Source: an uncultured Oscillospiraceae bacterium (lineage in GTDB: Bacteria; Bacillota; Clostridia; Oscillospirales; Oscillospiraceae). Taken from it: 42,026 nucleotides of DNA. Below, piece after piece: positions 12,021-30,617 of this stretch (position 1 is the first letter of the stretch; each line of letters opens with the position of its first letter). Below the pieces are notes generated by a model that did no database searches, was not told the origin of the DNA, and worked only from the letters and a program-made list of their open reading frames with translations. The stretch covers positions 1-42,026 of the forward strand of contig CATLEJ010000006.1 in assembly GCA_949916125.1 (NCBI GenBank). Direction: 5' to 3'. A program made the position numbers and the translations under genes.

Positions 12021-12443
12021 ATGCAACAGACACAAACGTACAAGCTGAACCTGGTGGAAGGGGAGGATCCGTTCTCCCCGCTGCCGCTGAATGAGAACGC
12101 GGAGAAGCTGGAGGCCGCCATCTCCGCCGCACGGGCGGACGCCGCCGCCGGGGACGCCGCGCTGGATCAGCGCGTCACCGTGCTGGAGGCCAAGCTGATG
12201 GTAGTGGGATCGTACACTGGGGATTTGACGAGAAACCGGCAGTTCCTGTTCGACCGCACACCCTCGCTGGTTTTGGTCATGCAGGAATCCGGCAATAACG
12301 ACTGGATGATCGCCGGAACCCGCCAGTTCAAGGAAAACATGAACAGGGACGTCGCCCTGGGCTTTATCGAGAACGGTTTCCAGATTGGGTTGGAGCCCAA
12401 CGAAAAGGGGAAAAATTACGTCTATGTGGCCATGTTTAATTGA
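12021..12443 (+). CDS. Small tail-fibre-tip-like protein A (paired with SLH protein 1)
   Basis: A 140-aa protein with no signal peptide or membrane segment. The N-terminus (MQQTQTYKLNLVEGEDPFSPLPLNENAEKLEAA) is a motif shared with two other genes in this window. It resembles the attachment start of many phage tail-fibre-like proteins. An Ala-rich probable coiled coil follows (about 30-60, LDQRVTVLEAKL). The last 80 residues are beta-rich: VVGSYTGDL, then ENGFQIGLEPNEKGKNYVYVAMFN. No other phage gene is nearby. It converges on SLH gene 1 across a shared terminator. Function unknown; a trimeric beta-tip that recognises a surface polymer is one guess. Confidence 0.8.
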   Translation: MQQTQTYKLNLVEGEDPFSPLPLNENAEKLEAAISAARADAAAGDAALDQRVTVLEAKLMVVGSYTGDLTRNRQFLFDRTPSLVLVMQESGNNDWMIAGTRQFKENMNRDVALGFIENGFQIGLEPNEKGKNYVYVAMFN

Positions 12444-15676: not shown

Positions 15677-15694
15677 TGGATTTGTTTCCTCCTT
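15599..15694 (-). repeat. Inverted 96-bp leader/signal-peptide repeat, copy 1
   Basis: The SD, spacer and signal-peptide codons of SLH gene 1 match the same part of SLH gene 2 (16185-16280) with four mismatches in 96 bp, in opposite orientation. The copy in SLH gene 3 is at 23965-24060. Signal peptides rarely stay this similar at the DNA level, including synonymous sites. Recent exchange or gene conversion is indicated. Confidence 0.9.
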
Positions 15695-15795
15695 ATTCGA
15701 TTTTGCCGTCTGGGCGGAACTTTTCCGGCGCGTCCGGGCGGATGGGATGAGCCATCCTCTCACAGCGCGGGGGCCCCGTCCTTCAGGCTGAGTGC

Positions 15796-16148: not shown

Positions 16149-16184
16149 GGGGCGGAAGGTTTCCGGCCGGCGGCAAAAATCATG

Positions 16185-16280
16185 AAGGAGGAAACAAATC
16201 CAATGAGAAATTTGAAGAAGTTTCTCGCACTGGTGCTGGCGATGATGATGGTTATGAGCCTTATGCTCACCGTCAACGCC
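16185..16280 (+). repeat. Inverted leader/signal-peptide repeat, copy 2
   Basis: This copy matches copy 1 (15599-15694) at 92 of 96 positions. A longer block, 16127-16228 (102 bp), is identical without mismatch to the reverse complement of 24017-24118 in front of SLH gene 3. Relative to both other copies it is inverted. Confidence 0.93.
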
Positions 16281-19232
16281 ACCAGCTTCGAGGACGACGA
16301 CAAGGTTGAGACGAAGTTCGCCGAGGCCGTTGACGTCCTGACCGGCATCGGCATTATCAAGGGTTTTGACAACGACGGCGTCACCACCTTTGATCCCCAG
16401 GGCAAGGTAACCCGCGCCCAGATGGCGGCGTTTGTGTACCGTATCGCCACCAATGACGCCGAGGAAAAGCAGGCCCACCTGTACGCCGGTTCCGGCACCC
16501 GGTTCACCGACGTGGCCGAGGGCGCCTGGTATGACGGCGTCGTGGGCTACTGCGCCGACCGCGAGATCATCGTGGGCTACGGCGACGGCACCTTCCGCCC
16601 CTGGCAGGAGGTCACCGGCACCGAGGCTCTGGTCATGATCCTGCGCGCCGTGGGCTACGACCAGGGCAAGGAGTTCCAGGGCAGCGCGTGGGCCGTCAAC
16701 GCCTACAGCCGCGCCAATGACCTGAAGCTGCTGGTCAATGTGGATAACACCAACTACAAGTCCACCCTGTCCGACGTCGCCACCCGCGAGCTGGTGGCCG
16801 AGCTGCTGTTCCAGGCCGGTCGGAAGCCCACCGTGACCTGGACCCAGGCCCTGGGCTACAACGACGGCTCCAGCACCCTGCTGGGCCCCGGCACCCCCAA
16901 CAAGAGCCTGCTTGTGAAGAACTACGGCCTGGCCTCTATGACCGGCATCATCGTGGGCAACCAGGCCACCGGCGAGAAGGTCACCAAGCTGGGCGTGGAG
17001 CTGAGCCTCACCAAGGAGGCCGGCAAAATCACGGGCACTACGGCGTCCGGCGTCAGCTATCTGACCGCTACCAGCACTGACGATTTGACCGCCGAGACCA
17101 AGGCAAACGCCAGCATTTCCTTCAACCTCAAGACCGGGCTGGACCAGTTCGGCCACAAGGTGGATGTCTGGTACAAGGACGGCACCAATGATCCGACCAA
17201 GCCCTTGCAGGTGGGCGAGGATGCTGCCGGGACGAAGGGCACCGCCATTGACGATGTGTACGGCACCGTGTACTGCGCCCGCAGCCTGGGCACCACGAGT
17301 GCGGTGGTGTACAGCGACGGTGTTGACCTGGAGGTTACTGCTACTGACACAGACCTTGGCAAAGCTATTGACAACGCCGGGTTCACCATTGGCGACAAGG
17401 TCAACGTGAGCGACGGCTTTGACCCGATCATCGAAGCCGACAAGGGTGATGATGTGCCTGTTACCCACGGCGATTCCGACCTCTACCTGCTGGTCTCCAA
17501 CGGCGGCGGCAAACTGGATCTGATCGTGTCCATGAGCATCGGTGTGTGGGATGTCCAGGCTGTCAACAACTACAGCAAACCCAAGTCCGTGACGATTGAC
17601 GCGGGCAAGGATCTCACAACCGCCTCCAGCGACGTGACTATCCAGCGCAGCGTCAAGAGCACTCCGGTAAACACGGATCACATCTTGGTCTACGGCGAGG
17701 ACGCCATCTCTGTGGGCGCCACCATGGTGGTCAACAAGATTTACGGCACCAACCGCACCAAGGCCACCGGCAGTGTTGCCAACGTCGATATGGACGCTGC
17801 GGCGTTCTTCTACGGCCTGGACAAGATCACCGAGGAGAAGACCGGCACCATCACCGCCATCAACGGCGGCAAGGTGACCATCAGGACCGACGACGGTGTC
17901 GAGACCATTGAGCAGTCTCCGCTGTGGAACCTGGCCGCCGCCAATACCATCTACAATGGGTCTAATGCCCTCCTGCTCATCGGCAACACCCTGACCTTCG
18001 TCCTGGACGGCAACGGCGAGTACCTGGGCGTTTCCAAGGCCAGCAACGAGCCCATCATGGGCGCTTACGGCTACTGGACGCAGACCGGCATCAGCGGCAT
18101 CAAGTACTTCATCCAGGGCGTCACCCGGGACGGCACAGTGATGAACGAGGAGATCGACCTCGCTACCTATCAGGCGCTGTTTACCACACCCGCGGGGGAT
18201 GGCGAGGATGCAAACAGGAACAACAAGCTGCCCTTCCTGGCGACTAAGGTCGGCGGCGATTCGAGCACCTCGCTGACCGTTGTCCCGAAGGCTACCGCCA
18301 GCATCGGCTACGATGACTACATCGTGGGCGAGGACAAGACGACCACCAGCGGCAGCGCCGGCTGGGAGGAGTTCGCCACCGACAACAACGCCAAGACGAC
18401 CCTGGTCAAGGGCCAGACGAGCTTCATTGAGAGCGTCGGCGGCGTGGCCAACACCAAGGTGTTCCTGACCGACCAGACCGTGTACCATGTGGTCACTGGC
18501 TACGGCGACGACCTGAAGGTGGAGCACTTCACCGGCCTGGACGACCTGCTCCAGGGCCATGACAGCATCAGCTTCAACGGCTACTACTTCCTGGCCGAGG
18601 ACGACACCGAGCACGCGGTCAGCATGAACAACATCGTGGAGGAAGCCCTGCTGGTGAACGTCAAGCGCGTCAGCCCCTCCAGCTTCTACTTCAACAAGGA
18701 CCAGTCGGCGGCTACCAACTCCATTGACGAGAAGACTGCCGACGGTAAGGCTGTCCAGCTTGAGATGTATGAGGCCGGCAAGAACGAGGCGGGCTCCATT
18801 CTGGTGTCCATGCTCGACCTCAGTGCCGGGGCCGGCAGCAAGAGCACCACAGGCAATGCCCAGCAGACTACTGCCAATAAATTCTACCTGGCGAGCACGG
18901 ACAGCTCCGGCTATCTCGAGCTTGTCGAGCAGAAGGAGGGCGCGAAGGGCTACGTCTACTATAGCAATGGCTCCAACGGCGAGCTGGTGAATGCCGGCAC
19001 CGCGTTCGGTGAGATTTCGTTCCTGAACGAGTCCAATGATACCGTGACCCTGAACGCCAAGGACGCCACCGTCATCGACGTGGCCACCGGCGCCAAGGAT
19101 CGGGGCATCACCGACTACGCTTCCCTGCGTACTGCGGCCGAGGAGAACAAGCTCGAAGTGGCTGTCCTGCTCACCGCCGCCGGCGGCGACACCGCTGCCG
19201 TGATCTACGTGTATAACTGCACCGCGCGGTAA
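16203..19232 (+). CDS. SLH-domain surface protein 2 (S-layer type)
   Basis: A 1009-aa secreted paralogue of proteins 1 and 3. It has the same 26-residue signal peptide, then three SLH repeats (about 33-225: VTRAQMAAFVYRIA, VTGTEALVMILRA, VATRELVAELLFQ). A long, low-complexity, probably beta-rich ectodomain ends with AAVIYVYNCTAR. The distal domain has no motif I recognise. The start at 16203 is chosen because AAGGAGG (16185-16191) precedes it by 11 nt. An in-frame ATG at 16182 overlaps that SD. No consensus promoter is seen close upstream. It converges on small protein B. Confidence 0.93.
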   Translation: MRNLKKFLALVLAMMMVMSLMLTVNATSFEDDDKVETKFAEAVDVLTGIGIIKGFDNDGVTTFDPQGKVTRAQMAAFVYRIATNDAEEKQAHLYAGSGTRFTDVAEGAWYDGVVGYCADREIIVGYGDGTFRPWQEVTGTEALVMILRAVGYDQGKEFQGSAWAVNAYSRANDLKLLVNVDNTNYKSTLSDVATRELVAELLFQAGRKPTVTWTQALGYNDGSSTLLGPGTPNKSLLVKNYGLASMTGIIVGNQATGEKVTKLGVELSLTKEAGKITGTTASGVSYLTATSTDDLTAETKANASISFNLKTGLDQFGHKVDVWYKDGTNDPTKPLQVGEDAAGTKGTAIDDVYGTVYCARSLGTTSAVVYSDGVDLEVTATDTDLGKAIDNAGFTIGDKVNVSDGFDPIIEADKGDDVPVTHGDSDLYLLVSNGGGKLDLIVSMSIGVWDVQAVNNYSKPKSVTIDAGKDLTTASSDVTIQRSVKSTPVNTDHILVYGEDAISVGATMVVNKIYGTNRTKATGSVANVDMDAAAFFYGLDKITEEKTGTITAINGGKVTIRTDDGVETIEQSPLWNLAAANTIYNGSNALLLIGNTLTFVLDGNGEYLGVSKASNEPIMGAYGYWTQTGISGIKYFIQGVTRDGTVMNEEIDLATYQALFTTPAGDGEDANRNNKLPFLATKVGGDSSTSLTVVPKATASIGYDDYIVGEDKTTTSGSAGWEEFATDNNAKTTLVKGQTSFIESVGGVANTKVFLTDQTVYHVVTGYGDDLKVEHFTGLDDLLQGHDSISFNGYYFLAEDDTEHAVSMNNIVEEALLVNVKRVSPSSFYFNKDQSAATNSIDEKTADGKAVQLEMYEAGKNEAGSILVSMLDLSAGAGSKSTTGNAQQTTANKFYLASTDSSGYLELVEQKEGAKGYVYYSNGSNGELVNAGTAFGEISFLNESNDTVTLNAKDATVIDVATGAKDRGITDYASLRTAAEENKLEVAVLLTAAGGDTAAVIYVYNCTAR

Positions 19233-19305: not shown

Positions 19306-19713
19306 TCAGGTGATTGCGATGAAGTTGTAGTGGCTTGTACCGTAGTTCAGGGCCTGGTTTCCATAGAGCTTGAAGCCGTTTTCGACCACAGAGATCTGCA
19401 GCTTTTCATTTGAGTACACAGGGAATTCGGGCACTACAAAGGTGATGCTGCGGGCGAGCTCATCCCGGCACACAAGCACCCCTTTGGGGGTGAAGCCGAC
19501 CTCGATGACCTGGTCGCTAGCCGTCCCGTTGTAGGTGCCGATGACAACCTTGTGCACCTCCAGCGCTGTGACCCGTGGGCCCAGGTCGTCCACGGCGGCG
19601 TCCACCCGGGCCAGAGCGGCGTCCAGCTTCTGCGTGTTCTCGTTCAGCGGGTTTGGCAGGAACGGGTCGTCGGGCTGGATCAGGTTGAGCTTGTAGTGTT
19701 GTGTTTGTTGCAT
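19306..19713 (-). CDS. Small tail-fibre-tip-like protein B (paired with SLH protein 2)
   Basis: A 135-aa paralogue of protein A. It begins MQQTQHYKLNLIQPDDPFLPNPLNENTQKLDAAL, then a short probable coiled coil (VDAAVDDLGPRVTALE), then a beta-rich tip (VVIGTYNGTASDQVIEVGFTPKGVLV, ENGFKLYGNQALNYGTSHYNFIAIT). The GTYxG...IxxGFxPKGVLV and final YNFIA pattern is typical of phage tail-fibre C-termini. No signal peptide. Its SD lies in a perfect 13-bp hairpin just upstream. It converges on SLH gene 2 and diverges from protein C. The function is not known. Confidence 0.8.
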   Translation of the reverse strand: MQQTQHYKLNLIQPDDPFLPNPLNENTQKLDAALARVDAAVDDLGPRVTALEVHKVVIGTYNGTASDQVIEVGFTPKGVLVCRDELARSITFVVPEFPVYSNEKLQISVVENGFKLYGNQALNYGTSHYNFIAIT

Positions 19714-19747: not shown

Positions 19748-19918
19748 CCGCCGTTTTGTTGCACCTTTTGTCCGGGAAAAGGACGATAATTTACAAAAAA
19801 TTAACAAGCAAGGAAACGTTGCCTTTTGCGGGAAAACGCGAAAAAAGCCCCCTTTGTTGCCCCGGAACGGGCAACAGCCGCCCCCTTTTATCCGGCTGCG
19901 AAGGAGTTGATAAAGATT

Positions 19919-20350
19919 ATGCAACAAACCGAAACCTACAAGCTCAACAAGCCCGAAATGTCCGACCTGATGTCCCTCGCGCCGCTGAACGAGAACATGG
20001 ACAAGGTGGAGGGGGCGCTGACGGCCCTGACGGCCCGGACGGTGACCCTGGAGAACCTGCGCATTATGGTGGGCCGGTACGTCGGCGGGGGGAACAACAC
20101 CGGCACCCTCATCAACCTGGGCGCGCGGCCCGTAGCGGTGGCGGCCTTCGGCCCCATTGTCTATCAGAGCAAGGTCGCCATGGCGGTGTTTGACACCGAC
20201 GTGATGGGCGAACACGTCCACGAAATTTTGACGCTGACCGACGAGGGCTTCATTGTGAAGGAAATGATGAACAACGCCCGGCAGTACAGCTTCATCGCCT
20301 TCTTCGGCGACTGGCCCACCGCAGACATCCCTAAACCCGCGGAGGAATAA
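19919..20350 (+). CDS. Small tail-fibre-tip-like protein C (paired with SLH protein 3)
   Basis: A 143-aa third paralogue. It begins MQQTETYKLNKPEMSDLMSLAPLNENMDKVEGAL, then a probable coiled coil (LTALTARTVTLENL), then a beta-rich end (VGRYVGGGNNTGTLINLGARPVAVAAF, NARQYSFIAFFGDW) and a short acidic tail. Start 19919 follows AAGGAG (19901-19906). An in-frame ATG at 19826 has no SD and adds unrelated residues. A GTTGCCC/GGGCAAC hairpin (19856-19875) lies in its leader, but the SD is not in a perfect stem, unlike A and B. It faces SLH gene 3. Confidence 0.8.
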   Translation: MQQTETYKLNKPEMSDLMSLAPLNENMDKVEGALTALTARTVTLENLRIMVGRYVGGGNNTGTLINLGARPVAVAAFGPIVYQSKVAMAVFDTDVMGEHVHEILTLTDEGFIVKEMMNNARQYSFIAFFGDWPTADIPKPAEE

Positions 20351-20412: not shown

Positions 20413-23400
20413 TCAGGTCGCCGTGGGAGTGTTCTCGATCACGTAGATGTTGCAGACGTAGCCGTCGGCATCAAACTCATACGTGAAGTCGTGGGGGGCC
20501 AGATCCTGGTTCTCCCACTTATCGGCGTTCGGGCCAGTGTGGATAACGCTGCTGGCGGGGGACACGCCGTTGATGTAGTCCAGAGCCTCGGCCTTCTCAA
20601 TGGTACGCACGGTCTTGAGATCCAGGTTCACCAGCTGGAAGGTGCAACCCTCGGCCATGGTCATGTACATGATTTCACCAGCCGCATCCTTGGTCGGCGT
20701 GTGCTGCCCGTTGGAGCTGTTATACTCGACATTACGGATGGACATCACGTCGTTAGACTCAGTCACCTTCCAGTAGCTCTTGCTGGCATCAGACTTGAAG
20801 TCCCAGTTGTTGGTGCCATCCACCTTCCAGCCGGGCAGCAGGGTGCTGGCCGCCAGGACGGTCTTGTCGTCCGCCACAGTCCAGGCAGTGTTGGCCTGGG
20901 TCACGTTATCGGTGGCCAGCAGGCTGTCCAGCGTCGCGATGGCGGTGACGTAGCCCTTCCGGTTGGTGTTCTGCACGGAGATGAGCTGCTTGGCAGCCAT
21001 GGCCGCCTCAACCTGCTCGTTCAGGCCCGCGTTGTTATTGTTGTTGATGTTGGCCACCTTCAGGGTGGTCTCCTTGCCGTTCTCCAGCACGTTGTACTCG
21101 GAGTACTCCTCGAGGGTCGCGCCGCGGCTCAGCACAAGGTAGGACTTATCCACGGTGATGGGGCTCTTGTCGCGGATGTTGAACTGCTTGCTGGTGTCCG
21201 CCGCATAGATGAACACGTAGGACGGGTCGTTGTTCAGCTGCTGGAACAGGATGTTGTCGTCGCCACTGTTGCCGACGATGGTGGGCATCTTCTTGAAGCC
21301 CTCGTAGACGGTGTACTCGATGTCCACGTTGCCGCCCTCGTTGGCGCCGCCCACGTTGTAGCGGTAATCGCCCTCGGCCACAAAGACGGTGCTCTTGCTG
21401 TTCAGCAGGGTGTTGACCTCGTTAGCGCCCGCCTTCACATTGGGCTCGTTGTTGGTATACGTGTCCACAGCAGTGCCCAGGGACCAGGCGCTGCCGGTCA
21501 GGACCATGTCGTCCCCGTCGGCGGAGCCCATCGGGCCGCTGGAGCCGTCGTGGTCGCCGAACAGCGTGGACTGCTTCTTGCTGCCAGTGTTCCTCGCGGC
21601 TTCGGCGTCAAAGTCGGAGATGAAGTGGCCGGACACGCCATCGATGGTGATGGCCTCGAACTTGACCAGGGAGCCCACGCCCAGGCCCTCATACAGGTTG
21701 TCGGTGCCCCAGGCCAGGTCGGCGGCTGTGGAGAGGGCGTACGCGCTCAGCAGCTGCTTCTCAGAGGCGGAGAGCTTGCCGTTGGTATGGAAGTTGTCGA
21801 TCGCGGTATCGTAATCGCCGCCAGCTCCATCCGGCACGATGCCGAACAGCTTGAACTCGGCCGTCTTGCCGTCGGCCATGAACGCAGTCACGACGGGCAT
21901 ATGCTTGCCCATGCCGATGCGGTCGGTGTCGATGGCGGTGATGATGCCCACGTTGCTGGTGGTGCTCTCACGCACCTTGTCCATGCCCACGATGTAGCCG
22001 TTCTGATCCAGCACGATGTCATAGGTATCGCCAATCATGCTGTTGGTGATGCCGAACTTGGGCTGGTCGATGTCGTACCACGTAGTGGGTACGGTCTTGT
22101 TGGCGCTGACGGTGTAAGTGCCCGCGTTCCCGCTGTTTACGTTCCGCTTATCGTTATCGAAAGTAGTCGCGCTATTATCGAGCACCACATTGCGGCCCGC
22201 CAGGAAGGCGTTGCTGGCCCGGTAGGTTTTGCCGTCGTCGGCGCCGATGGCCATTTTCAGGTTGGCCGCGCCATAGGTGGCGGTGACCTTCACGCGGAGC
22301 TTCTGCGCGGGGGTGGCCAGCAGCTTGGCGTTCTTGCCGGTGCTGTTGGTGGAATCCCACACGAACTCATCGCCGGTGTCGGGCAGGTCGCGGGGGTCCA
22401 GGGGGGCGGTGTCGGGGTTATCTACCTTGTAGAGGCCCACGCCTGCGGTGGTGCCAACGGTAAGATTTCCGCCCTCAGTAAGGTCGCCATTGGGGGTCTG
22501 CACCAGCACCAGGTCGTCGGCCTTGAACTTGCCGCTGGGATTGGGCAGGTCAAGGGTCTTCCCGGTGTTGCCGATGGCGACCTTCGCCATGGCCGCGCGG
22601 ATCACGTGGCCGTTGGCGTCCTTCAGCTCGGTGGTGGTGCTGGACACCACACCCAGCAGGGTGTCAATGTACACGAAGCGGTACTCGTCATTGTTGTCAT
22701 CGTCGATATCGCCGAGGTTATAGATCTCGGTGGTACGGCCGGTGGCGCCGATAAAATCGGTGGTGGTGTGCCGCGCATCAAAATTGGCGGGACGGGCCGC
22801 AGCCGCACTTTGATTGGCAAAGCTCTTATCATATTGCCCGTTGTCAACAACGTACTTATGGTTTGCCGCATCCAGATCATACAGCTTGCTGCCGTTCAGG
22901 TACTCGGTGATGTCGTCCCAGGCGATGGTCTTGTCGTTGTTGATGTCCTTGGACACCTGGCACTCGGTCACGCCGTCGGTGTAGGTCACCAGCGGGGTGG
23001 CGGCGATGGAGATTTCCTCCACGTTGGGGCCGAGGCCGATGTTGTCCACGTCAGCCTCGGTAGCAGTGGCGGAAGCGCCCCACTGACCTTTCGCGGAGTT
23101 GTTAGCGGTGATGACAACACTGTCGTCCAAGCTCTTGTTCACGATGTACTTACCGGCGTTGCCGTCGGGGGTGCCGGCGGTGGTTTTGTCAGTGCCGGTG
23201 ATGGTATCGTCAGTACGGTCCTTCACCCAGGCGGTGGTGGGACGGCCATAGGGGTCGTCCGCGCCGGCAGTCTTGCCAACGATGCCGTAGTTCTCGTACA
23301 TCAGGTTGGAGTTCACGGGCAGCTTCAGGCCGTCGTCGATGGCCAGTTTGTAAGCGGCCCGGTTGTCCTCGTTGTCCGCAATCAGCACGATGGCGGGGTA

Positions 23401-24042
23401 GTAATTGAGGAGCATATTGTAGTCCACCAGGGTGGCCTGGAGGGCCTGGAACATGATCTCGGCCACCATCTCGCGGGTGGCGGGGGCGCCCAGGGTGCCT
23501 TCCTTGATGCGGTCGGTCAGGCCGGCCACGCGGGCATAGCGGGCGGTCTGGACCATCCAGCCGGAGCCCTCGAACTCGCCGTTCTGGCCGTAGCCCAGCA
23601 CACGCAGGGTCATCGCCAGCACCTCATAGCCGGTGATGTCGCGCCAGGCGCCGAAGGTGCCGTCGCTGTAGCCCTTGATGTACTCGGAGTTGGCGCAGTA
23701 GTTGACCGCACCCGCGTACCACTTGTCAGAGGGGACGTCGGGGAACTTGCCGTAATCCTTGTAGATCGCGACCTGGCTCTCGTCGGCGTCATTGTGGGCG
23801 ATGCGGTACAGCATCGCGGCCACCTCGGCGCGGGTAATGGTCTCCTGGGGACGGAAGCCCCGGTCATCGCCCTTTACCACGCCCAGCGCGGACAGAACGT
23901 TGACAGCTTCCGCGTAAGTGCTGTTGACTTTGCTGCTGTCGGAGAACTCAGCAGGCGTCTTCGCAGCGTTGACGGTGAGCATGAGGCTCATAACCATCAT
24001 CATCGCCAGCACCAGCGCGAGAAACTTCTTCAAATTTCTCAT
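20413..24042 (-). CDS. SLH-domain surface protein 3 (S-layer type)
   Basis: The largest paralogue, 1209 aa. It has the same signal peptide, then SLH repeats at about 30-225: ITRAEVAAMLYRIA, DITGYEVLAMTLRV and PATREMVAEIMFQ. A long Asn/Asp/Thr-rich ectodomain follows, ending in DGYVCNIYVIENTPTAT. Its distal part is more diverged from proteins 1 and 2 than they are from each other by eye. The start is set by AAGGAGG at 24054-24060. An in-frame ATG at 24063 overlaps the SD. I see no consensus promoter in the 190 bp upstream. Confidence 0.93.
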   Translation of the reverse strand: MRNLKKFLALVLAMMMVMSLMLTVNAAKTPAEFSDSSKVNSTYAEAVNVLSALGVVKGDDRGFRPQETITRAEVAAMLYRIAHNDADESQVAIYKDYGKFPDVPSDKWYAGAVNYCANSEYIKGYSDGTFGAWRDITGYEVLAMTLRVLGYGQNGEFEGSGWMVQTARYARVAGLTDRIKEGTLGAPATREMVAEIMFQALQATLVDYNMLLNYYPAIVLIADNEDNRAAYKLAIDDGLKLPVNSNLMYENYGIVGKTAGADDPYGRPTTAWVKDRTDDTITGTDKTTAGTPDGNAGKYIVNKSLDDSVVITANNSAKGQWGASATATEADVDNIGLGPNVEEISIAATPLVTYTDGVTECQVSKDINNDKTIAWDDITEYLNGSKLYDLDAANHKYVVDNGQYDKSFANQSAAAARPANFDARHTTTDFIGATGRTTEIYNLGDIDDDNNDEYRFVYIDTLLGVVSSTTTELKDANGHVIRAAMAKVAIGNTGKTLDLPNPSGKFKADDLVLVQTPNGDLTEGGNLTVGTTAGVGLYKVDNPDTAPLDPRDLPDTGDEFVWDSTNSTGKNAKLLATPAQKLRVKVTATYGAANLKMAIGADDGKTYRASNAFLAGRNVVLDNSATTFDNDKRNVNSGNAGTYTVSANKTVPTTWYDIDQPKFGITNSMIGDTYDIVLDQNGYIVGMDKVRESTTSNVGIITAIDTDRIGMGKHMPVVTAFMADGKTAEFKLFGIVPDGAGGDYDTAIDNFHTNGKLSASEKQLLSAYALSTAADLAWGTDNLYEGLGVGSLVKFEAITIDGVSGHFISDFDAEAARNTGSKKQSTLFGDHDGSSGPMGSADGDDMVLTGSAWSLGTAVDTYTNNEPNVKAGANEVNTLLNSKSTVFVAEGDYRYNVGGANEGGNVDIEYTVYEGFKKMPTIVGNSGDDNILFQQLNNDPSYVFIYAADTSKQFNIRDKSPITVDKSYLVLSRGATLEEYSEYNVLENGKETTLKVANINNNNNAGLNEQVEAAMAAKQLISVQNTNRKGYVTAIATLDSLLATDNVTQANTAWTVADDKTVLAASTLLPGWKVDGTNNWDFKSDASKSYWKVTESNDVMSIRNVEYNSSNGQHTPTKDAAGEIMYMTMAEGCTFQLVNLDLKTVRTIEKAEALDYINGVSPASSVIHTGPNADKWENQDLAPHDFTYEFDADGYVCNIYVIENTPTAT

Positions 24043-24060
24043 TGGATTTGTTTCCTCCTT
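23965..24060 (-). repeat. Inverted leader/signal-peptide repeat, copy 3
   Basis: Matches copy 2 (16185-16280) in inverted orientation with a few synonymous mismatches. The surrounding block 24017-24118 is identical over 102 bp to the reverse complement of 16127-16228. Recombination between the two would invert about 7.8 kb and exchange the two SLH bodies. Confidence 0.92.
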
Positions 24061-24199
24061 CATGATTTTTGCCGCCGGCCGGAAACCTTCCGCCCCAAAA
24101 AGAGGGGATGAGCCATCCTATCAGGGACCATGCCGCCCAAATCGCAAGAAAATCGTAAGAATTTCGCAGGGATATTTTCATATCCGTCAGGCGTTGCCC

Positions 24200-25490: not shown

Positions 25491-25519
25491 TTGACTTTGA
25501 CCATGGGAAGGTGTAAATT
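25491..25519 (+). promoter_or_regulatory. Probable promoter of SLH gene 4
   Basis: TTGACT (25491-25496), 17 bp, TAAATT (25514-25519). A GGGTA/TACCC palindrome (25529-25541) lies at the expected start of transcription and could be an XRE operator. The 5' leader would be about 50 nt, with AAAGGAG before ATG 25575. Confidence 0.6.
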
Positions 25520-25574
25520 ACTGTATGAGGGTATCATACCCAAAAATTCCTTTCAAGAAAGGAGAACAAATATT

Positions 25575-28337
25575 ATGAAACACCTCAGCAAGAGGATCGC
25601 CGCCTTGGCCATGGCCCTGGCGATGACCCTCACCCTTACCACCTGGGCATCCGCCGCCGACTACGCGGATATGCCCGAAAACTGGGCCAAGGCCCCCGTG
25701 GAGGCCGCCGTGGAGGCGGGCCTGCTCCAGGGCTCCGACGGCCTGCTGCGCCCCACCGACCATCTCACCCGGGCCGAGATGGCCGCCATCGTCGTGCGCG
25801 CCTTCGGCGCCACCCAGAGCGCCGACGTGTCCAAGTTCAGCGACGTGGACGCCAACGCCTGGTACGTGGCCCAGAACGCCGTCCCCGGCGCCGTGTTCAT
25901 GCAGATCATGAAGGGCAACGCCAACGGCACCTTCGAGCCCGGCAAGTACATCACCCGTGAGCAGGCCTTCGCCATCCTGGCCCGCGCCCTGAAGCTGGAG
26001 GCCGGCGATGCCGCCGCCCTGGAGAAGTTCTCCGACGCCGCCGATGTGTCCTCCTGGGCCACCGGCGAGGTGGCCGCCCTGGCCGCCGCCGGGTACGTCA
26101 ACGGCAGCGACGGCAAGCTCAACCCCCAGGGCCTCATCACCCGCCAGGAGTTCGCCCAGGTCATGTACAACATCTTCGGCAGCTACATCAAGGAGGCCGG
26201 CACCTACTCCGAGGTGGGCGAGCGCACCCTCATGATCTCCGCCGACGGCGTGACCATTGAGGACGCCACCATCCACGGCGACGTCATCATCGGCGAAGGC
26301 GTGGGCGAGGGCGACGTGTACTTCAAGAACGTCACCATCGAGGGCCGCGTGGTCGTCCGCGGCGGCGGCGTCAACTCCATCCACTTCATCAACAGCGACA
26401 CCGCCAAGGTGCTGGTGTCCAAGATCGAGGGCGCGGTCCGCGTGGTCACCGACAAGGCCAGCTCCGTGGCCGAGGTCGCCGTGGTGGCCGGCCAGGATAC
26501 CGTCACCGTAGAGGGCTCCGTGGACAAGGTGGCCGTGGAGGCCGAGACCCCCGTGGTCGTCAAGGACGCCGAGGTCAAGACCGTTGAGGTCAAGACCGAC
26601 AGCGCCAAGGTGGAGATCACCGGCGCGTCCAAGGTGGAGGCCGTCTCCGTCACCGCCGACGCCCAGGTGGGCATCACCGGCAGCTCCAACGTGACCAAGG
26701 TGGAGGCCGCTTCCGGCACCGTCACCGCCGGCGGCGAGGCCCGTGTGTCCACCATCACCACCACCGGCGGCGACGTGAAGGTGGAGGACACCGCCCGTGT
26801 GACCACCATCGAGGCCCCCAAGACCGAGGACGGCGCCCCCGCCCCCACCGTCACCATCGCGGACACCGCCACCGTCAGCACCGTGAAGGCGGAGACCGAC
26901 GTGACCCTGGACGGCAAGGCCAACCGCGTGGAGGCCCCCAAGGACGTGACCGTCAGCGATTCCAACGGCAACGAGGTCGCCACCACCACCCCCGGCGGCA
27001 GCACTGGCCCCAGCTATCCCTCCGGCGGCGGTACTACCACGCCTGAAGAGCCTAAGCCCCCCACGGGTTCTGAAAGTGAAGATCCTGTGACGAAGCCTGA
27101 ACAGCCCACAATTCCTGATGCAGCAGACGATCCCACTCAAGAGCAAAAACCGGCAGATAAGTCTGAAGGCGGTGCGCTGACTGATGAGCATACAGAACAT
27201 CAGTATCCTGATACCCCCACAAGCACGAAACCTGCTACTTGCTCAGAGTTTGGTGAAGAAACCTATAAGTGCACAGGCTGTGACAATGTGAAGACGGTAA
27301 GCATTGCGAAAATTGCTCACACTCCGAATACGGATCCTGACGATGAGAAGGCTGCTACTTGCGTGACTGATGGTTACAAAGCTTATAATTGCTCTGTTTG
27401 TGGCGCTGAAAATGTAAAGGTTGACACCATCACCAAGACTGGGAATCATAATTACAGCGAAGGCTGGACTTACGATAATGACAACCATTGGCATCAGTGC
27501 ACTGTGTGCGGCGATAAGAACGGCACCGCCGCTCACAAAGGCAAAGGTTTTGTATCCATCAGCGATACTCAACACAAGGGCGTTTGTGAGTGTGGTAAGG
27601 AAATTACAGCTGCCCACGGAACGCTGACCGATGTTGCTAACACCGCTGTTGCTGCTACCTGTGCGAAAGACGGCAAGGAGGCCGATCAGAAGTGCCCGGA
27701 CTGCAACTATGTCAAGACCGGCGACACCATCAGCAAGGACACTATTCCGCACACCTTTAAGCCCGAGAGCAAGACTGGTAAGTGCGAAGTGTGCAAGACT
27801 GCTGAGTGCCCGCACACGGATGAAAAGGGTGATACCTGCACAAAGTGCGGCGTTACGCTGAAAACCGAGCCTGCGTGTTCCGTTGAGGGCTGTACTTGTA
27901 CAGACCACACCAACTGCGGCAAGGCTACCGGGAGCACTTGTGCTGCGGATTGCACCGCTTGCACGGCAGCGAAGCAGGAGGCGTGCGGAGAGCGCGAAGG
28001 AGGACACACCTATGCTGCGGGTACTTGCAGCAACTGCGGCAAGACGATAACCGCTGACACCTGCCCTGATAAGGACACAGAACATAGCAAAATTCACACA
28101 GGTAAAACCTGTCCAAAGTGCGGATATCAGGGCCAGGCTGCGCACAGCTTTGTAAATGGCGCGAATTGTAGTTGTGGTGAGACTGGTACGCCTCACCAGT
28201 GGGAATCTGGTACGTGTAATGCAGCCGGCCATTCGGAATGTACCTGTGATCACAGTGGGGATGAAGATAAAACCGATAGTACTTGCAGTGTTTGCGGTGG
28301 ATCGGTGACACCCGAGACCAACGGCGAAAGCAAATAA
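25575..28337 (+). CDS. SLH-domain protein 4 with beta-solenoid-like and Cys-rich C-terminal regions
   Basis: A 920-aa secreted protein in four parts. Signal peptide MKHLSKRIAALAMALAMTL, cleaved near ASA at 27. Three SLH repeats (about 29-210; LTRAEMAAIVVRAF, ITREQAFAILARAL, ITRQEFAQVMYNIF). A Val/Thr-rich repetitive region (about 220-475: GDVIIGEGVGEGDVYF, VEGSVDKVAVEAETPVVV) that looks like a beta-solenoid. A Pro/Gly/Glu linker (about 475-540), then a tail of about 380 residues with more than ten CxxC or CxC motifs (KCTGC, NCSVC, QCTVC, KCPDC, TCTKC, TCSNC, TCPKC, TCSVC). Codon use turns AT-richer at the linker (near 27040). No LPxTG sorting signal is seen. Not a close paralogue of SLH proteins 1-3. 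Confidence 0.93.
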   Translation: MKHLSKRIAALAMALAMTLTLTTWASAADYADMPENWAKAPVEAAVEAGLLQGSDGLLRPTDHLTRAEMAAIVVRAFGATQSADVSKFSDVDANAWYVAQNAVPGAVFMQIMKGNANGTFEPGKYITREQAFAILARALKLEAGDAAALEKFSDAADVSSWATGEVAALAAAGYVNGSDGKLNPQGLITRQEFAQVMYNIFGSYIKEAGTYSEVGERTLMISADGVTIEDATIHGDVIIGEGVGEGDVYFKNVTIEGRVVVRGGGVNSIHFINSDTAKVLVSKIEGAVRVVTDKASSVAEVAVVAGQDTVTVEGSVDKVAVEAETPVVVKDAEVKTVEVKTDSAKVEITGASKVEAVSVTADAQVGITGSSNVTKVEAASGTVTAGGEARVSTITTTGGDVKVEDTARVTTIEAPKTEDGAPAPTVTIADTATVSTVKAETDVTLDGKANRVEAPKDVTVSDSNGNEVATTTPGGSTGPSYPSGGGTTTPEEPKPPTGSESEDPVTKPEQPTIPDAADDPTQEQKPADKSEGGALTDEHTEHQYPDTPTSTKPATCSEFGEETYKCTGCDNVKTVSIAKIAHTPNTDPDDEKAATCVTDGYKAYNCSVCGAENVKVDTITKTGNHNYSEGWTYDNDNHWHQCTVCGDKNGTAAHKGKGFVSISDTQHKGVCECGKEITAAHGTLTDVANTAVAATCAKDGKEADQKCPDCNYVKTGDTISKDTIPHTFKPESKTGKCEVCKTAECPHTDEKGDTCTKCGVTLKTEPACSVEGCTCTDHTNCGKATGSTCAADCTACTAAKQEACGEREGGHTYAAGTCSNCGKTITADTCPDKDTEHSKIHTGKTCPKCGYQGQAAHSFVNGANCSCGETGTPHQWESGTCNAAGHSECTCDHSGDEDKTDSTCSVCGGSVTPETNGESK

Positions 28338-28371
28338 CTTTCCTCTCCTTTCTTGTTCTAAATAGCCCCAC

Positions 28372-28403
28372 CCAAAGCCCGCCGGACACCCGGCGGGCTT
28401 TGG
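28372..28403 (+). terminator. Hairpin terminator after SLH gene 4
   Basis: CCAAAGCCCGCCGG (28372-28385) pairs perfectly with CCGGCGGGCTTTGG (28390-28403), loop ACAC. The downstream T content is modest (CGTTTCG), but position and stability fit a terminator. Confidence 0.8.
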
Positions 28404-28441
28404 CGTTTCGTCCCGCCCCGCGGCGGTTTCGGCTTTCCCCC

Positions 28442-28470
28442 TTGACAGCGCCGCCGCCCCGGGGTATAAT
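28442..28470 (+). promoter_or_regulatory. Perfect consensus promoter of small RNA 1
   Basis: TTGACA (28442-28447), 17 bp, TATAAT (28465-28470): an exact match to the sigma-A consensus with ideal spacing. It is followed by ACAAATATAAG, alike in all three copies. Confidence 0.93.
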
Positions 28471-28476
28471 ACAAAT

Positions 28477-28570
28477 ATAAGAACACCACGCGTTAAGGCG
28501 GTTAGTCCGTTAAGTTACGTTTTCTAATGGGTATAGAAACCGTCACTTGGCAGAGTGGCGGTTTCTGCTT
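28477..28570 (+). ncRNA. Predicted small RNA 1 of a tandem antisense-RNA array
   Basis: About 90 nt from the promoter to the end of the hairpin AGAAACCG...CGGTTTCT (28535-28566). The conserved internal box GGCGGTTAGTCC is shared with RNA 2. No T-tract follows, because the hairpin runs directly into the -35 of the next promoter. The hairpin DNA, read on the minus strand, encodes the end of a micro-ORF (SRNRHSAK-stop) whose start is missing. This copy looks like an orphan antitoxin-like RNA with a decayed partner. Confidence 0.65.
28543..28569 (-). pseudogene. Remnant 3' end of a third micro-ORF
   Basis: Minus-strand codons S-R-N-R-H-S-A-K-stop match the ends of the two intact micro-ORFs, but the upstream sequence is replaced by the promoter of small RNA 2 and has no start or SD. 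It marks either a truncated duplication or a decaying toxin-like gene. Confidence 0.55.
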
Positions 28571-28597
28571 GACAATGCGGGCCTGTCAAGTTATAAT
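28569..28597 (+). promoter_or_regulatory. Perfect consensus promoter of small RNA 2
   Basis: TTGACA (28569-28574), 17 bp, TATAAT (28592-28597), exact consensus. It begins three bases after the hairpin of small RNA 1. Confidence 0.93.
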
Positions 28598-28603
28598 ACA
28601 TAT

Positions 28604-28697
28604 AAGGACGCCGCGCATTCCGGCGGTTAGTCCATCAAATGTTTGTTCCTAAAGTATTAGAAACCGTCACTTGTGGGAGTGGCGGTTTCTGCTTTTC
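28604..28697 (+). ncRNA. Predicted small RNA 2, antisense to micro-ORF 1
   Basis: Starts ACATATAAGGACGCC, has GGCGGTTAGTCC, and ends with AGAAACCG (28659-28666)/CGGTTTCT (28683-28690) and TTTT. It overlaps the last ten or so codons of the oppositely transcribed micro-ORF 1 (28667-28744). The terminator stem and the 3' coding end of the micro-ORF are the same DNA. This is the layout of a type I antitoxin RNA. Confidence 0.72.
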
Positions 28698-28744
28698 ACA
28701 ATAATCGTGACAGTGAACTGCCCGATATGAAGTGTGATCCGCAT
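28667..28744 (-). CDS. Micro-ORF 1 (25 aa), candidate type I toxin
   Basis: A 25-codon ORF with SD AAAGGGGGTGA five bases before ATG 28744. The peptide has an aliphatic beta-prone core (ITLHIGQFTVTIIVK) and a basic end (NRHSHK). Micro-ORF 2 shares FTVTI and NRHSxK. Four of the five FTVTI codons differ only at third positions between the copies, good evidence of protein-level selection. The leader hairpin (GTCAC, CCCC, GAAA loop, GGGG, GTGAC; 28748-28773) hides the SD. I do not recognise a described family. Confidence 0.72.
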   Translation of the reverse strand: MRITLHIGQFTVTIIVKSRNRHSHK

Positions 28745-28747
28745 ATA

Positions 28748-28773
28748 GTCACCCCCTTTCGGGGTAGTGTGAC
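28748..28773 (-). promoter_or_regulatory. GAAA-tetraloop hairpin hiding the SD of micro-ORF 1
   Basis: In the minus-strand RNA GUCAC, a 4-nt bulge, CCCC, GAAA, GGGG and GUGAC form a stem holding GGGGGUGA, the SD. The same design with the same GAAA loop occurs in front of micro-ORF 2 (29079-29104). Confidence 0.7.
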
Positions 28774-28807
28774 CAGCCGCCTAACTAACACGAATGCGCA
28801 GCGCCCA

Positions 28808-28858
28808 GCCCTGATTCAGGGCCGATCCCAGTATACCACAGCTTTCGACAAAACGCAA
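28808..28858 (-). promoter_or_regulatory. Promoter and 5' stem of the micro-ORF 1 mRNA
   Basis: Minus strand: TTGCGT (28853-28858), 17 bp, TATACT (28830-28835) preceded by TGG, an extended -10. The predicted start near 28823 coincides with a perfect 6-bp stem-loop GCCCTG/CAGGGC (28808-28822), so the mRNA would begin in a hairpin, as many stable type I toxin mRNAs do. Confidence 0.7.
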
Positions 28859-28877
28859 GGGCCGCCTGTTTTGCCCC

Positions 28878-28906
28878 TTGACAGGGCCATTATCCCAGGT
28901 TATAAT
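28878..28906 (+). promoter_or_regulatory. Perfect consensus promoter of small RNA 3
   Basis: TTGACA (28878-28883), 17 bp, TATAAT (28901-28906), exact consensus, followed by ACAAATAAAGG. Confidence 0.93.
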
Positions 28907-28912
28907 ACAAAT

Positions 28913-29021
28913 AAAGGGCCCCGTGTTTGTTCCCCCAGGCAGGCGGTTTGGCTCTTTTAAGTTCGGGTTGCTATAAGACACAGACAACCGTCACTTGGCA
29001 GAGTGGCGGTTGCCCTTTTTT
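28913..29021 (+). ncRNA. Predicted small RNA 3, antisense to micro-ORF 2
   Basis: About 109 nt, ending in the stem CAACCG (28985-28990)/CGGTTG (29007-29012) and six T (29016-29021), the best terminator of the three. It overlaps the 3' end of micro-ORF 2 (28991-29077). Its 5' half has GGCAGGCGGTTTGG, which recurs inverted at the far side of the cassette. Confidence 0.75.
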
Positions 29022-29077
29022 GTGATCCGGATCGTTACGGTAAAACCGAACGGGTGGAATGTCACAATAATAGGCAC
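28991..29077 (-). CDS. Micro-ORF 2 (28 aa), candidate type I toxin
   Basis: A 28-codon ORF with GTG start (29077) after AAAGGGGGTGAGTAC. The peptide runs MPIIVTFHPFGFTVTIRITK and ends KGNRHSAK: a short hydrophobic beta-prone stretch then a basic tail. It aligns with micro-ORF 1 over FTVTI and NRHS, with mainly synonymous codon differences. An SD-hiding hairpin with a GAAA loop lies at 29079-29104. It could be membrane-active, but no test is possible from sequence. Confidence 0.72.
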   Translation of the reverse strand: MPIIVTFHPFGFTVTIRITKKGNRHSAK

Positions 29078-29078
29078 G

Positions 29079-29104
29079 TACTCACCCCCTTTCGGGTTTG
29101 AGTA
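29079..29104 (-). promoter_or_regulatory. GAAA-tetraloop hairpin hiding the SD of micro-ORF 2
   Basis: In the minus-strand RNA UACUCA, AA, CCC, GAAA, GGG, GG and UGAGUA form a stem enclosing the SD. The sequence differs from the micro-ORF 1 hairpin in both arms of the outer stem, yet pairing is kept, which is covariation in favour of a real structure. Confidence 0.72.
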
Positions 29105-29123
29105 ACCAAACCGCCTGCCGTCG

Positions 29124-29181
29124 CCGGGTTCCCTCACACGGGGCCCGGATTTATTTTACATGATTCGACGATAAAGGTCAA
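29124..29181 (-). promoter_or_regulatory. Promoter and 5' stem of the micro-ORF 2 mRNA
   Basis: Minus strand: TTGACC (29176-29181), 17 bp, TAAAAT (29153-29158). The -35 box contains the TGA stop of the MurE gene. The predicted start near 29147 opens a CCGGG/CCCGG stem (29124-29148). Confidence 0.72.
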
Positions 29182-30617
29182 CGCCGCGCCCGGAAATAGC
29201 CCTCCACCACCCCGCGCTCGGAAAAGGGCCGCCGCACGCCGTTTTCCTCGATGTACCCCTCGTGGCCCTTGCCCGCCAGCGCCACCACGTCCCCCGGCTG
29301 TGCCAGCTCCAGGGCCCGGACAATGGCGGCGGCCCGGTCGGGGATGGTCTCCGTGGGGATGGCCCCGCCGATGGCGGCGGCAATGTCCGCGCAGATGTCC
29401 TCCGTCCGCTCGGAGCGGGGGTTATCCTCCGTCAAAATGGCGTAGTCCGCGCCCTGGGCGGCGGCGCGGCCCATGTCCGTCCTGCGGATTTTGGGGCGGT
29501 CGCCCCCCGCGCCGAACACCAGGATGATCCGCCGGGGGCGGTACTCCCCCAGGGCGGCCAGCAGGGAGCGCAGGCTGTCGCCGTTGTGGGCGTAGTCGAT
29601 GAACACGGAGAAGGGCGCGGGGACGGGGACGCGCAGGGCGCGCCCCGGCACGGCGGTATGGGCCAGCCCCGCCCGGATGGCGCCGTCGTCCAGCCCCAGG
29701 GCCCGGCCCAGGGCCACAGCGGCCAGGGCGTCGGCGGCGTTGAAGGCCCCCGGCATGGGCACGTGGTAGGGCGGCGCGCCCTCCACCGTCAGCCGGGTGG
29801 AGAAGGGCCGGGCGGGGTCGGGCTCCACCGCCAGCGCCCGCACCTGGGCGTCCCCCGTCCCGAAGGTGACGATGGCCGCGCCGGGGGGCGTCTGCGCCGC
29901 CATGGCGGGCCAGGCGGGGTCGTCGGCGTTGCCCACGGCCAGGCGGCACTGGCGGAACAGGGCGGCCTTGCAGGCCCGGTACTCGGCGAAGTCGGCGTGC
30001 TCCGCCCCGCCGATGTGGTCGGGGGTGAGGTTGAGGAACAGGCCGGCGTCAAAGACAAGGCCGTATACCCGGCGCAGCTTCATGGCCTGGGAGGACACCT
30101 CCATCACCACGTGGGAGCACCCCGCGTCCGCCATCTGCCGGAGGGTGCGGTGGAGGGCGACGGGCTCGGGGGTGGTGTTGAGGCTTTCCTCCAACAGGGT
30201 ACGGCCCACATAGGTCCCCAGGGTGCCGATCATGCCGGTCTTGTACCCGGCGGCGGAGAAAATCTCCCGGAGCATATGGGCGGTGGTGGTTTTCCCCTTG
30301 GTTCCGGTAATGGCGATCAGGGTAAGGCTCCGGGCGGGGTGTCCGTAAAATTCGGCGGCCAGGAGGGCCAGGGCGGCGCGGGGGTCGTCTACGGCGAGGC
30401 CGTTGACGTCCGGGGGCAGGGGTGGGGCGCAGAGCACGGCGGACGCGCCCCGTTCCAGCGCGTCGGGGATAAAGGCGCGGCCGTCGGCCCTGGCCCCCGG
30501 CAGGGCGGCGAACAGCGCGCCGGGGACGACCTCCTGTGAGCGGCAGGTGAGGGCGGTGATGTCCGCCTCCCGGGGGCAGTCCGCCCCCAAAACAGACAAA
30601 AGCCGGGACAGCTTCAT
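29178..30617 (-). CDS. murE: Mur ligase, UDP-MurNAc-tripeptide synthetase type
   Basis: MurE adds the third residue to UDP-MurNAc-L-Ala-D-Glu in the cytoplasm. The 479-aa protein has the normal MurE length. An N-terminal UDP-substrate domain (TCRSQEVVPGALFAALPG) is followed by the central ATPase domain with P-loop ITGTKGKTTTAHML (near residue 104), then the C-terminal domain with TEDNPRSE. DNPR is the usual meso-diaminopimelate signature. GTKGKTT and YAHNGDSL instead resemble the lysine-type Streptococcus enzymes, so the substrate is uncertain and a second MurE may exist elsewhere. It has no operon partner here; its stop lies in a promoter of the micro-ORF array. Confidence 0.88.
   Translation of the reverse strand: MKLSRLLSVLGADCPREADITALTCRSQEVVPGALFAALPGARADGRAFIPDALERGASAVLCAPPLPPDVNGLAVDDPRAALALLAAEFYGHPARSLTLIAITGTKGKTTTAHMLREIFSAAGYKTGMIGTLGTYVGRTLLEESLNTTPEPVALHRTLRQMADAGCSHVVMEVSSQAMKLRRVYGLVFDAGLFLNLTPDHIGGAEHADFAEYRACKAALFRQCRLAVGNADDPAWPAMAAQTPPGAAIVTFGTGDAQVRALAVEPDPARPFSTRLTVEGAPPYHVPMPGAFNAADALAAVALGRALGLDDGAIRAGLAHTAVPGRALRVPVPAPFSVFIDYAHNGDSLRSLLAALGEYRPRRIILVFGAGGDRPKIRRTDMGRAAAQGADYAILTEDNPRSERTEDICADIAAAIGGAIPTETIPDRAAAIVRALELAQPGDVVALAGKGHEGYIEENGVRRPFSERGVVEGYFRARR

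Follow-up and report, generated by a model that had tools for sequence, protein, structure and literature searches.

The stretch of DNA analysed here, 42,026 nucleotides (nt) of contig CATLEJ010000006.1 from an uncultured Oscillospiraceae bacterium (the whole of it is called the window below), carries between positions 28442 and 29181 a tandem array of three units. Each unit begins with a TTGACA-17-TATAAT promoter that would make a short RNA, and in two of them a micro open reading frame (ORF) on the other strand converges on that RNA, an arrangement that makes the array a candidate type I toxin-antitoxin system. The three promoters, reported in a first-pass annotation of the sequence and confirmed by pattern search, are the only perfect ones in 42 kilobases (kb) on either strand, and the region 28200-29400 holds five promoter-like sites where shuffles lead one to expect 0.6. 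Terminator stems at 28534-28570, 28658-28694 and 28982-29018 (plus strand) are repeats of one another, and nowhere else in the genome assembly is the stem pattern matched exactly. The parts of the array are as follows, the bit scores being those of an RNA model (R1) that was built with RNAs 1, 2 and 3 included, so that their scores are not independent:

28442..28470, plus strand: promoter of RNA 1, TTGACA-17-TATAAT, by pattern search
28477..28567, plus strand: RNA 1, solo and antitoxin-like, with no ORF opposite (R1 match 28476-28575, 73.4 bits)
28569..28597, plus strand: promoter of RNA 2, TTGACA-17-TATAAT, by pattern search
28604..28694, plus strand: RNA 2, putative antitoxin of ORF 1, terminator stem 28658-28694 (R1 match 28601-28699, 79.1 bits)
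28667..28744, minus strand: micro-ORF 1 (start 28744), 25 codons, MRITLHIGQFTVTIIVKSRNRHSHK, convergent, opposite unit 2
28745..28774, minus strand: hairpin hiding the Shine-Dalgarno (SD) sequence of ORF 1, GTCAC...CCCC-GAAA-GGGG-GTGAC, read from the sequence and from family-wide folds
28830..28838, minus strand: extended -10 element TGGTATACT of the ORF 1 mRNA, weak, with no clear -35, by eye
28849..28880, minus strand: possible terminator of the ORF 2 mRNA, CAAGGG...CCCTTG CGTTTTG, past the RNA 3 region, by eye
28878..28906, plus strand: promoter of RNA 3, TTGACA-17-TATAAT, by pattern search
28913..29018, plus strand: RNA 3, putative antitoxin of ORF 2, terminator stem 28982-29018 (R1 match 28911-29023, 68.6 bits)
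28938..28951, minus strand: 3' arm of a long-distance 5'-3' pairing of the ORF 2 mRNA, complement of the RNA 3 leader, a 14-nt perfect inverted repeat
28991..29077, minus strand: micro-ORF 2 (start 29077), 28 codons, GTG start, (M)PIIVTFHPFGFTVTIRITKKGNRHSAK, convergent, opposite unit 3
29078..29107, minus strand: SD-hiding hairpin of ORF 2, TTACTC...CCC-GAAA-GGG..GAGTA, from folds
29106..29119, minus strand: 5' arm of the long-distance pairing of the ORF 2 mRNA, from the inverted repeat and the mRNA fold
29153..29181, minus strand: promoter of the ORF 2 mRNA, TTGACC-17-TAAAAT, 10/12, by promoter scan

The first-pass description of RNAs facing convergent micro-ORFs holds for units 2 and 3 but not for unit 1 (28442-28570), which consists of RNA and terminator only, has no ORF core opposite, and runs with its terminator directly into the -35 element of RNA 2. 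Both micro-ORFs are preceded by CGAAAGGGGGTGA, the strong SD claimed for them. A promoter of its own had likewise been claimed for each; ORF 2 has one, but the promoter scan found none for ORF 1, whose extended -10 was picked out by eye. The possible terminator of the ORF 2 mRNA is absent from the scan's list, and the mRNA fold pairs that part differently. RNA 1 folds with a z score of -3.0 and RNA 2 with one of -5.3. Read directly from the sequence, the FTVTI core shared by the two peptides is encoded as TTC ACT GTC ACG ATT in one ORF and TTT ACC GTA ACG ATC in the other, so that, as had been pointed out, four of five third positions differ.

A search for this layout, which the first-pass annotation had proposed, returned a large family. 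Matches to the stem pattern lie in 45 viral contigs and at least 119 stretches of genome contigs; from at least 218 distinct stem places we kept 205, dropping 13 for short flanks, and we struck three ORFs by eye (L124, L153 and L181). This sampling fixes most stem bases, and stem conservation in the set is partly built in. An ORF and an antisense promoter scoring at least 10/12 occur together at 150 of the 205 places, an ORF alone at 6, an RNA promoter alone at 32, and neither at 17 (12 of these are featureless matches in viral contigs). A near-consensus antisense promoter (at least 10/12) thus stands opposite 150 of the 156 intact ORFs, reaching 12/12 in 103, whereas random windows of the same loci attain 10/12 in 207 of 4620 cases; the unit layout recurs at 148 or more places besides the window's two. 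By the strict pattern, the antisense promoter is present in 28 of 31 loci, the others being L008, L011 and L014, and L008 has at least 10/12 by the looser measure. In the 150 units, which were chosen for a good RNA promoter, the RNA promoter averages 11.6 of 12 and the mRNA promoter 9.3 (over all 156 the RNA promoter averages 11.3); by consensus score, the antitoxin promoter would be the stronger one, as in type I systems. Promoter, terminator and RNA model matches also point to an antisense RNA gene that overlaps the putative toxin mRNA.

The 156 intact ORFs are 25-37 residues long and encode 141 distinct peptides. Selection across many copies, a check that the first-pass annotation had suggested, was estimated as the ratio of nonsynonymous to synonymous proportions (pN/pS, by Nei-Gojobori) on the peptide core, with the start and last nine codons excluded and with pairs 70-97% identical. 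The ratio is 0.15 for peptides of 25 residues (916 pairs), 0.29 for 27 (354 pairs), 0.27 for 28 (10 pairs), 0.33 for 29 (27 pairs) and 0.31 for 30 (3 pairs), as against 0.71 to 2.65 in shifted frames; the pairs are non-independent and the proportions uncorrected for multiple hits. These values show that the core is under purifying selection and that the ORFs are truly coding; at under ~60 residues the peptides are also as small as type I toxins.

The RNA sets how the peptide ends. The peptide's final codons, AAC CGC CAC TCx xxx AAG TGA, are the terminator stem read on the other strand, and a lysine-rich linker faces the T-tract of the RNA. The NRHSxK end noted in the first pass is indeed shared but, being the terminator complement, its sameness is no independent evidence for peptide function. 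At the one stem pair left free by the search pattern, 127 of the 156 ORFs have Ser/Lys (T-A), 27 have Pro/Arg (C-G) and two have Ser-Gln, which keeps the pair, with no mixed combinations; loci not drawn with the Ser/Lys pattern divide into 39, 23, one and none. These codons would serve two strands at once, as peptide end and as RNA terminator, a clean case of overlapping constraint. In two further members, L307 and L310, which use the same RNA scaffold, the stem-loop is one base longer, and the same stem, read in another frame, yields the ends KTATQAQ and KTATPKQ.

The proposed hiding of the SD held up across the family: its five central bases are all paired in the local fold in 123 of 150 units, with a mean energy of -15.5 compared with -10.6 for shuffled sequence (the shuffles used for SD folds, leader/3' pairing and the B and C closures described below preserve base composition only). 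Each mRNA leader resembles the leader of its own antisense RNA, and hence pairs with its own 3' untranslated region (UTR). Over 140 units this pairing averages -43.4 kcal/mol, against -31.6 with the 3' UTRs of other units and -27.6 for shuffles, and in 82 of the 140 the unit's own 3' UTR ranks within the best 5% of 60 others. The ORF 2 mRNA, with ends chosen by us, closes into a fold of -127.5 kcal/mol (z -5.8). In an alignment of 14 of the 15 listed units (ORF 1's unit was left out), closure and terminator stem together comprise 33 pairs, with 95% of cells paired as compared with at most 47% when slid, and 13 of the 33 pairs have changed on both sides; shuffles did as well in 0 of 500 cases on four of five measures and in 89 of 500 on the fifth. 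These folds would give a structured mRNA with an occluded SD, as expected of a type I toxin.

Several other explanations can be set against these results. Selection in frame (pN/pS 0.15-0.33), together with SD hairpins in most copies, makes it very unlikely that the RNA alone matters, as a trans-acting small RNA whose terminator is overlapped by a decaying ORF, even though ORF-less RNAs keep good promoters at 32 places and in 15 of 57 strong RNA matches within the genus. Slightly less probable still is a mobile repeat resembling a miniature inverted-repeat transposable element, whose terminal inverted repeats contain promoters by chance and whose ORF is incidental: the mRNA and RNA leaders do form an inverted repeat around the ORF, and copies are found in many genomes and contigs, but the arms differ between units, match better within units and have changed on both sides, and purifying selection acts on the ORF in one frame only. 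The inverted arms flanking the ORF, with promoters facing inwards, could also suggest an invertible switch in which recombination puts the ORF under the strong promoter. The arms are short and imperfect, however, and the near-consensus promoter faces the ORF end in the collected units (the search was built on that orientation), and we regard a switch as hardly credible.

Selection on the ORF, the promoters, the overlap, the hidden SD, 5'-3' complementarity with covariation, and sharing of the RNA scaffold by other units can all be read from the DNA; together with ORF loss that leaves the RNA in place, the presence of units in phage contigs, and RNAs homologous to those opposite Hol_Tox-like peptides, they support the first-pass proposal of an undescribed family, and we put the probability that the array is a type I toxin-antitoxin system at about 80%. 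From this reading we infer expression, action of RNA on RNA, toxicity, instability of the RNA, and a membrane target. A weaker promoter would make the mRNA for an amphipathic beta-hairpin peptide of 25-28 residues, which would probably harm the cell's own membrane or envelope, and a near-perfect convergent promoter would make an antitoxin RNA of ~95-110 nt whose sequence complements the final codons plus the 3' UTR. In the complete mRNA the leader would pair with the 3' UTR and close the molecule; the abundant RNA, with a 5' domain that copies the mRNA leader, would invade the 3' UTR, and the duplex would be degraded. If the locus, or a phage or plasmid carrying it, were lost, the unstable RNA would decay first and the peptide would be made.

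On this reading unit 1 would have lost its toxin part and kept the antitoxin RNA. As in unit 1, the -35 core of another RNA follows within 21 nt in eight of the 32 solo RNAs (six of them also with its -10), and that -35 hexamer lies within 60 nt at one of the 156 ORF-bearing places. A tandem array in L205 (236-1095) has two intact ORFs flanking a frameshifted copy whose RNA promoter still scores 12/12.

Some observations weigh against a type I system. RNA 3 has a fold z of only -1.8, with 10 of 200 shuffles as good. RNAalifold gave no consensus for the SD hairpin (64 of 140 hairpins), probably because its register shifts, and single folds were used in its place. The 33-pair structure was derived from the same alignment on which it was scored, which favours it. 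An mRNA promoter is absent or poor (below 9/12) in 33 of the 150 units, and six intact ORFs have no good RNA promoter (L014, L139, L155, L157, L166 and L208), although L155 and L208 reach 9/12 and L166 has one nearby, with a shortened RNA. Loss of the ORF with the RNA promoter kept (32 places) exceeds the reverse (6), but a 75-nt ORF breaks neutrally oftener than a 12-nt promoter, so this excess is no proof. Finally, hydropathy of 1.6 on a 19-residue window is reached by none of the 141 hairpin peptides. In L166 the same peptide is encoded twice, at 1801-1881 and 4976-5056, with the RNA promoter 44 and 75 nt from the stop codon, so near that the RNA would be very short.

The hydropathy result also undoes the likeness to hydrophobic toxins drawn in the first pass, as the peptide is no hydrophobic helix like the toxins named there. 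Each half of it alternates polar and apolar residues, with beta moments of 0.73 and 0.66 as against 0.31 and 0.32 for shuffled sequence, and no rise in the helix moment; taken over the entire core, the beta moment falls below chance (0.14 versus 0.21), as a phase change at the turn would bring about. AlphaFold2, run on the 30-residue member L184 with 65 aligned sequences, places strands at residues 2-9 and 12-19, with a predicted local distance difference test score of 90 over residues 1-20 and 67 thereafter, and a predicted template modelling score of 0.33. The peptide is thus predicted to be an amphipathic beta-hairpin rather than a helix. Membrane type I toxins are described as helical, with the cytosolic RalR and SymE set apart, in the accessible text of PMC8309996; the hairpin peptides lack the alpha-helical transmembrane domain that would place them among the former.

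The first-pass remark that the peptides do not match familiar ones agrees with the library searches. The window peptides have no match in Pfam, NCBIfam or PADLOC, and comparison with solved structures gave none; over 65 members the best expectation values (E) are weak, at 0.0019 in PHROGs, 0.0093 in NCBIfam and 0.022 in Pfam. Profiles of Fst/Ldr, Hok, Ibs and TxpA-like toxins, which the Pfam and NCBIfam libraries contain, are not among the matches of the two window peptides or of the 65 members at E 0.1. Rfam 15 yielded nothing at the gathering threshold in the window, nothing at E 1 in 28338-29200, and only a T-box and tRNA on nine other loci. Six peptide strings are absent from the searchable text of papers (supplements and most subscription papers lie outside its reach), and we met no described system with such an RNA in the literature searched. 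Five of the 65 members touch the YrzI profile (TIGR02413/PF09501; best E 0.0093 and 0.027); membership was rejected, the one match viewed covering 11 residues at 13.5 bits against a cut-off of 47.05. MetaRibo-Seq families 386898 and 386917 (29 residues, Clostridiales), as given in the accessible part of PMC7324362, could be related.

The RNA leads to further relatives. A covariance model of the hairpin family, built from 51 of 127 RNAs, matches 25 of 37 genomes of the genus (E 0.001), with 57 matches of at least 50 bits; by reading, 15 of these have no intact ORF and another stops at a contig end, and tblastn alone was the basis for judging the ORF in eight of the remainder. The model also finds 22 loci under 50 bits in the genus, of which we examined 18, the other four being tandem neighbours of strong matches. 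In 17 of the 18, an RNA promoter of at least 10 is combined with an opposite, SD-led, transmembrane-like ORF that ends at the right place, a combination met at 6 of 4000 random sites; transmembrane-like here means a hydropathy of 1.6 on 15 residues, a mark that 27 of the 141 hairpin peptides reach too. The 17 include near copies (L251, L252, L256). Their peptides, of kinds we call B and C, are unrelated to the hairpin peptides, and 16 of 16 pass on both the 15- and the 19-residue window. A B-type example, MVTYSDLIQTGILIVGIIALFLQANKKK, is a Hol_Tox-like peptide of 28 residues from the window's own genome (L276; contig C75, 1799-1887, minus strand), and a C-type example is MGNGRWAQALRIVVWFIIVLLLMIATAPKAC.

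The resemblance extends beyond the terminator. A model of the 5' domain (the first 51 alignment columns of the hairpin family only, with no terminator) recovers the RNA leader at all of these 17 loci (16 within the inclusion threshold, L284 at E 0.06) and lies within threshold on the mRNA leader in four loci. The closure is also seen in 15 B and C mRNAs, at -59.4 versus -37.0 for shuffles, energies that use other windows and are not comparable with the leader/3' UTR energies of the hairpin family. Outside the genus we examined 17 of 21 matches, the four strongest being viral-contig places already known, and found the promoter in 16, an ORF in 13 and a transmembrane-like ORF in nine; these loci add further peptide kinds. 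One locus in each examined set (L286, L292) looks false.

Related RNAs opposite quite different peptides suggest an antitoxin RNA with an exchangeable toxin part. We would give even odds to the stronger proposal that one RNA scaffold, comprising leader domain, closure, SD hairpin and terminator, acts as a common chassis whose toxins, differing in fold, have been swapped for one another, among them beta-hairpins, Hol_Tox-like helices and the MGNGRW...WFIIVLLLMI type. Accounts of type I systems usually go family by family and give each toxin a single RNA, and they present the membrane toxins as helical. If a chassis RNA persists while its toxins are replaced, it would show how type I systems arise and spread, would offer a search handle for toxins missed by peptide searches, and would widen the range of possible toxin folds to include a beta-hairpin, which would be novel among type I toxins; solo RNAs like unit 1 may in that case guard against phage toxins on the same chassis. 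It would also be the RNA counterpart of promiscuous protein antitoxins such as the Panacea domain, one antitoxin part that is paired with many toxins according to the accessible text of PMC8832971; Panacea, however, is a protein domain that binds toxins, and here the shared part would be an RNA scaffold.

These relatives also bear on the idea that the peptide is a conserved small housekeeping or regulatory protein, such as an envelope or competence peptide, kept low by its antisense RNA and not a toxin. Selection on the peptide is seen whereas toxicity is only deduced, the peptide is no transmembrane helix on the 19-residue measure, and B-type peptides come closest in NCBIfam to ComI, which inhibits competence, at E 0.00064 and far short of the cut-off. 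A patchy distribution, multiple copies in one genome, tandem arrays, frequent loss of the ORF where the RNA stays, and phage carriage would, however, hardly be expected of such a protein, nor would a scaffold shared with Hol_Tox-like peptides, one of which touches the profile of the type I toxin PepG1 (E 0.015). We consider this alternative unlikely, and keep to the type I reading in the comparisons that follow.

In TxpA/RatA and BsrG/SR4 of Bacillus subtilis the genes are convergent and overlap at their 3' ends. In hok/Sok and aapA/IsoA the RNA targets the leader or SD region, whereas the RNA of the window family covers the ORF end and the 3' UTR. Like the window family, TxpA/RatA and BsrG/SR4 pair a short toxin gene with an antisense RNA, and several lie in prophages, according to the accessible parts of a 2019 review (PMC6563280); the window family differs in having no profile match, coding codons within the overlap, a predicted beta-hairpin, and strong 5'-3' closure of the mRNA. 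The same parts of that review restrict validated type I modules in Clostridia, as then known, to C. difficile, where CD2517.1/RCd8, CD0977.1/RCd11 and others likewise have overlapping genes, several per genome and many in prophages, and where three modules are described as convergent (PMC6563280). The Clostridioides difficile toxins are set apart by description, with 34-59 residues, a transmembrane domain and a charged C-terminus. Closure of the full-length mRNA by long-distance 5'-3' pairing is shared with hok/Sok and aapA/IsoA, and transient SD-hiding hairpins with aapA3, as far as the accessible text of PMC6733600 goes. Four of five scanned B-type peptides match most of the Hol_Tox profile (PF16935; E 0.00061, 0.0019, 0.044 and 0.15), at 12.4-20 bits against a cut-off of 23.3 bits; unlike them, the two window peptides have no Hol_Tox match, and neither do the 65 members at E up to 0.1.

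The family is apparently undescribed and occurs in gut bacteria and some phages. Stem-bearing records are labelled Lachnospiraceae, Oscillospiraceae, Gemmiger, Evtepia, Dysosmobacter, Pseudoflavonifractor, Oscillibacter, Subdoligranulum, Acutalibacter and others. The window's genome included, tblastn with ORF 1 has matches in 18 of 60 genomes (E at most 1), the stem occurs in 13 of 295 genomes of an even sample of the order, and a class-wide peptide profile matches in 4 of 291; of the three non-window matches to this profile (L109, L110 and L111) we examined L109, which has the RNA and a shortened ORF. Against plasmids, tblastn found four places on Vescimonas fastidiosa pMM35_01 (best E 3e-4), with no feature annotated under the best of them in a gene table that is incomplete; a Pseudoalteromonas plasmid match (E 2) was set aside as unlikely. 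No match came from tblastn against phage records. On reading, 24 of the 45 viral contigs carry a unit (the ORF is broken in L072, and some contigs are mutual copies) and 21 do not. We probed part of the ORFs of six: L064 and L074 gave no phage-specific match among those probed, L097 has an integrase beside the unit, L089 an FtsK-like gene and L080 a tail-hub-like gene ~6 kb away, and in L105 the unit directly precedes a P22-type portal gene.

The window site itself looks chromosomal. The array is bordered on one side by the gene of a large secreted, surface-layer-like protein (stop 28337) and on the other by a murE-like gene (29178-30617, minus strand); both names were given by eye, from the translations. 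Four large secreted-looking proteins are encoded at 12515-15763, 16182-19232, 20413-24063 and 25491-28337; three of them contain nearly the same start, MRNLKKFLALVLAMMMVMSLMLTVNA, and the second half of the last is rich in Cys-x-x-Cys motifs. Three small ORFs (12021-12443, 19306-19713 and 19826-20350) share MQQTxxYKLN near their start and adjoin surface-type genes.

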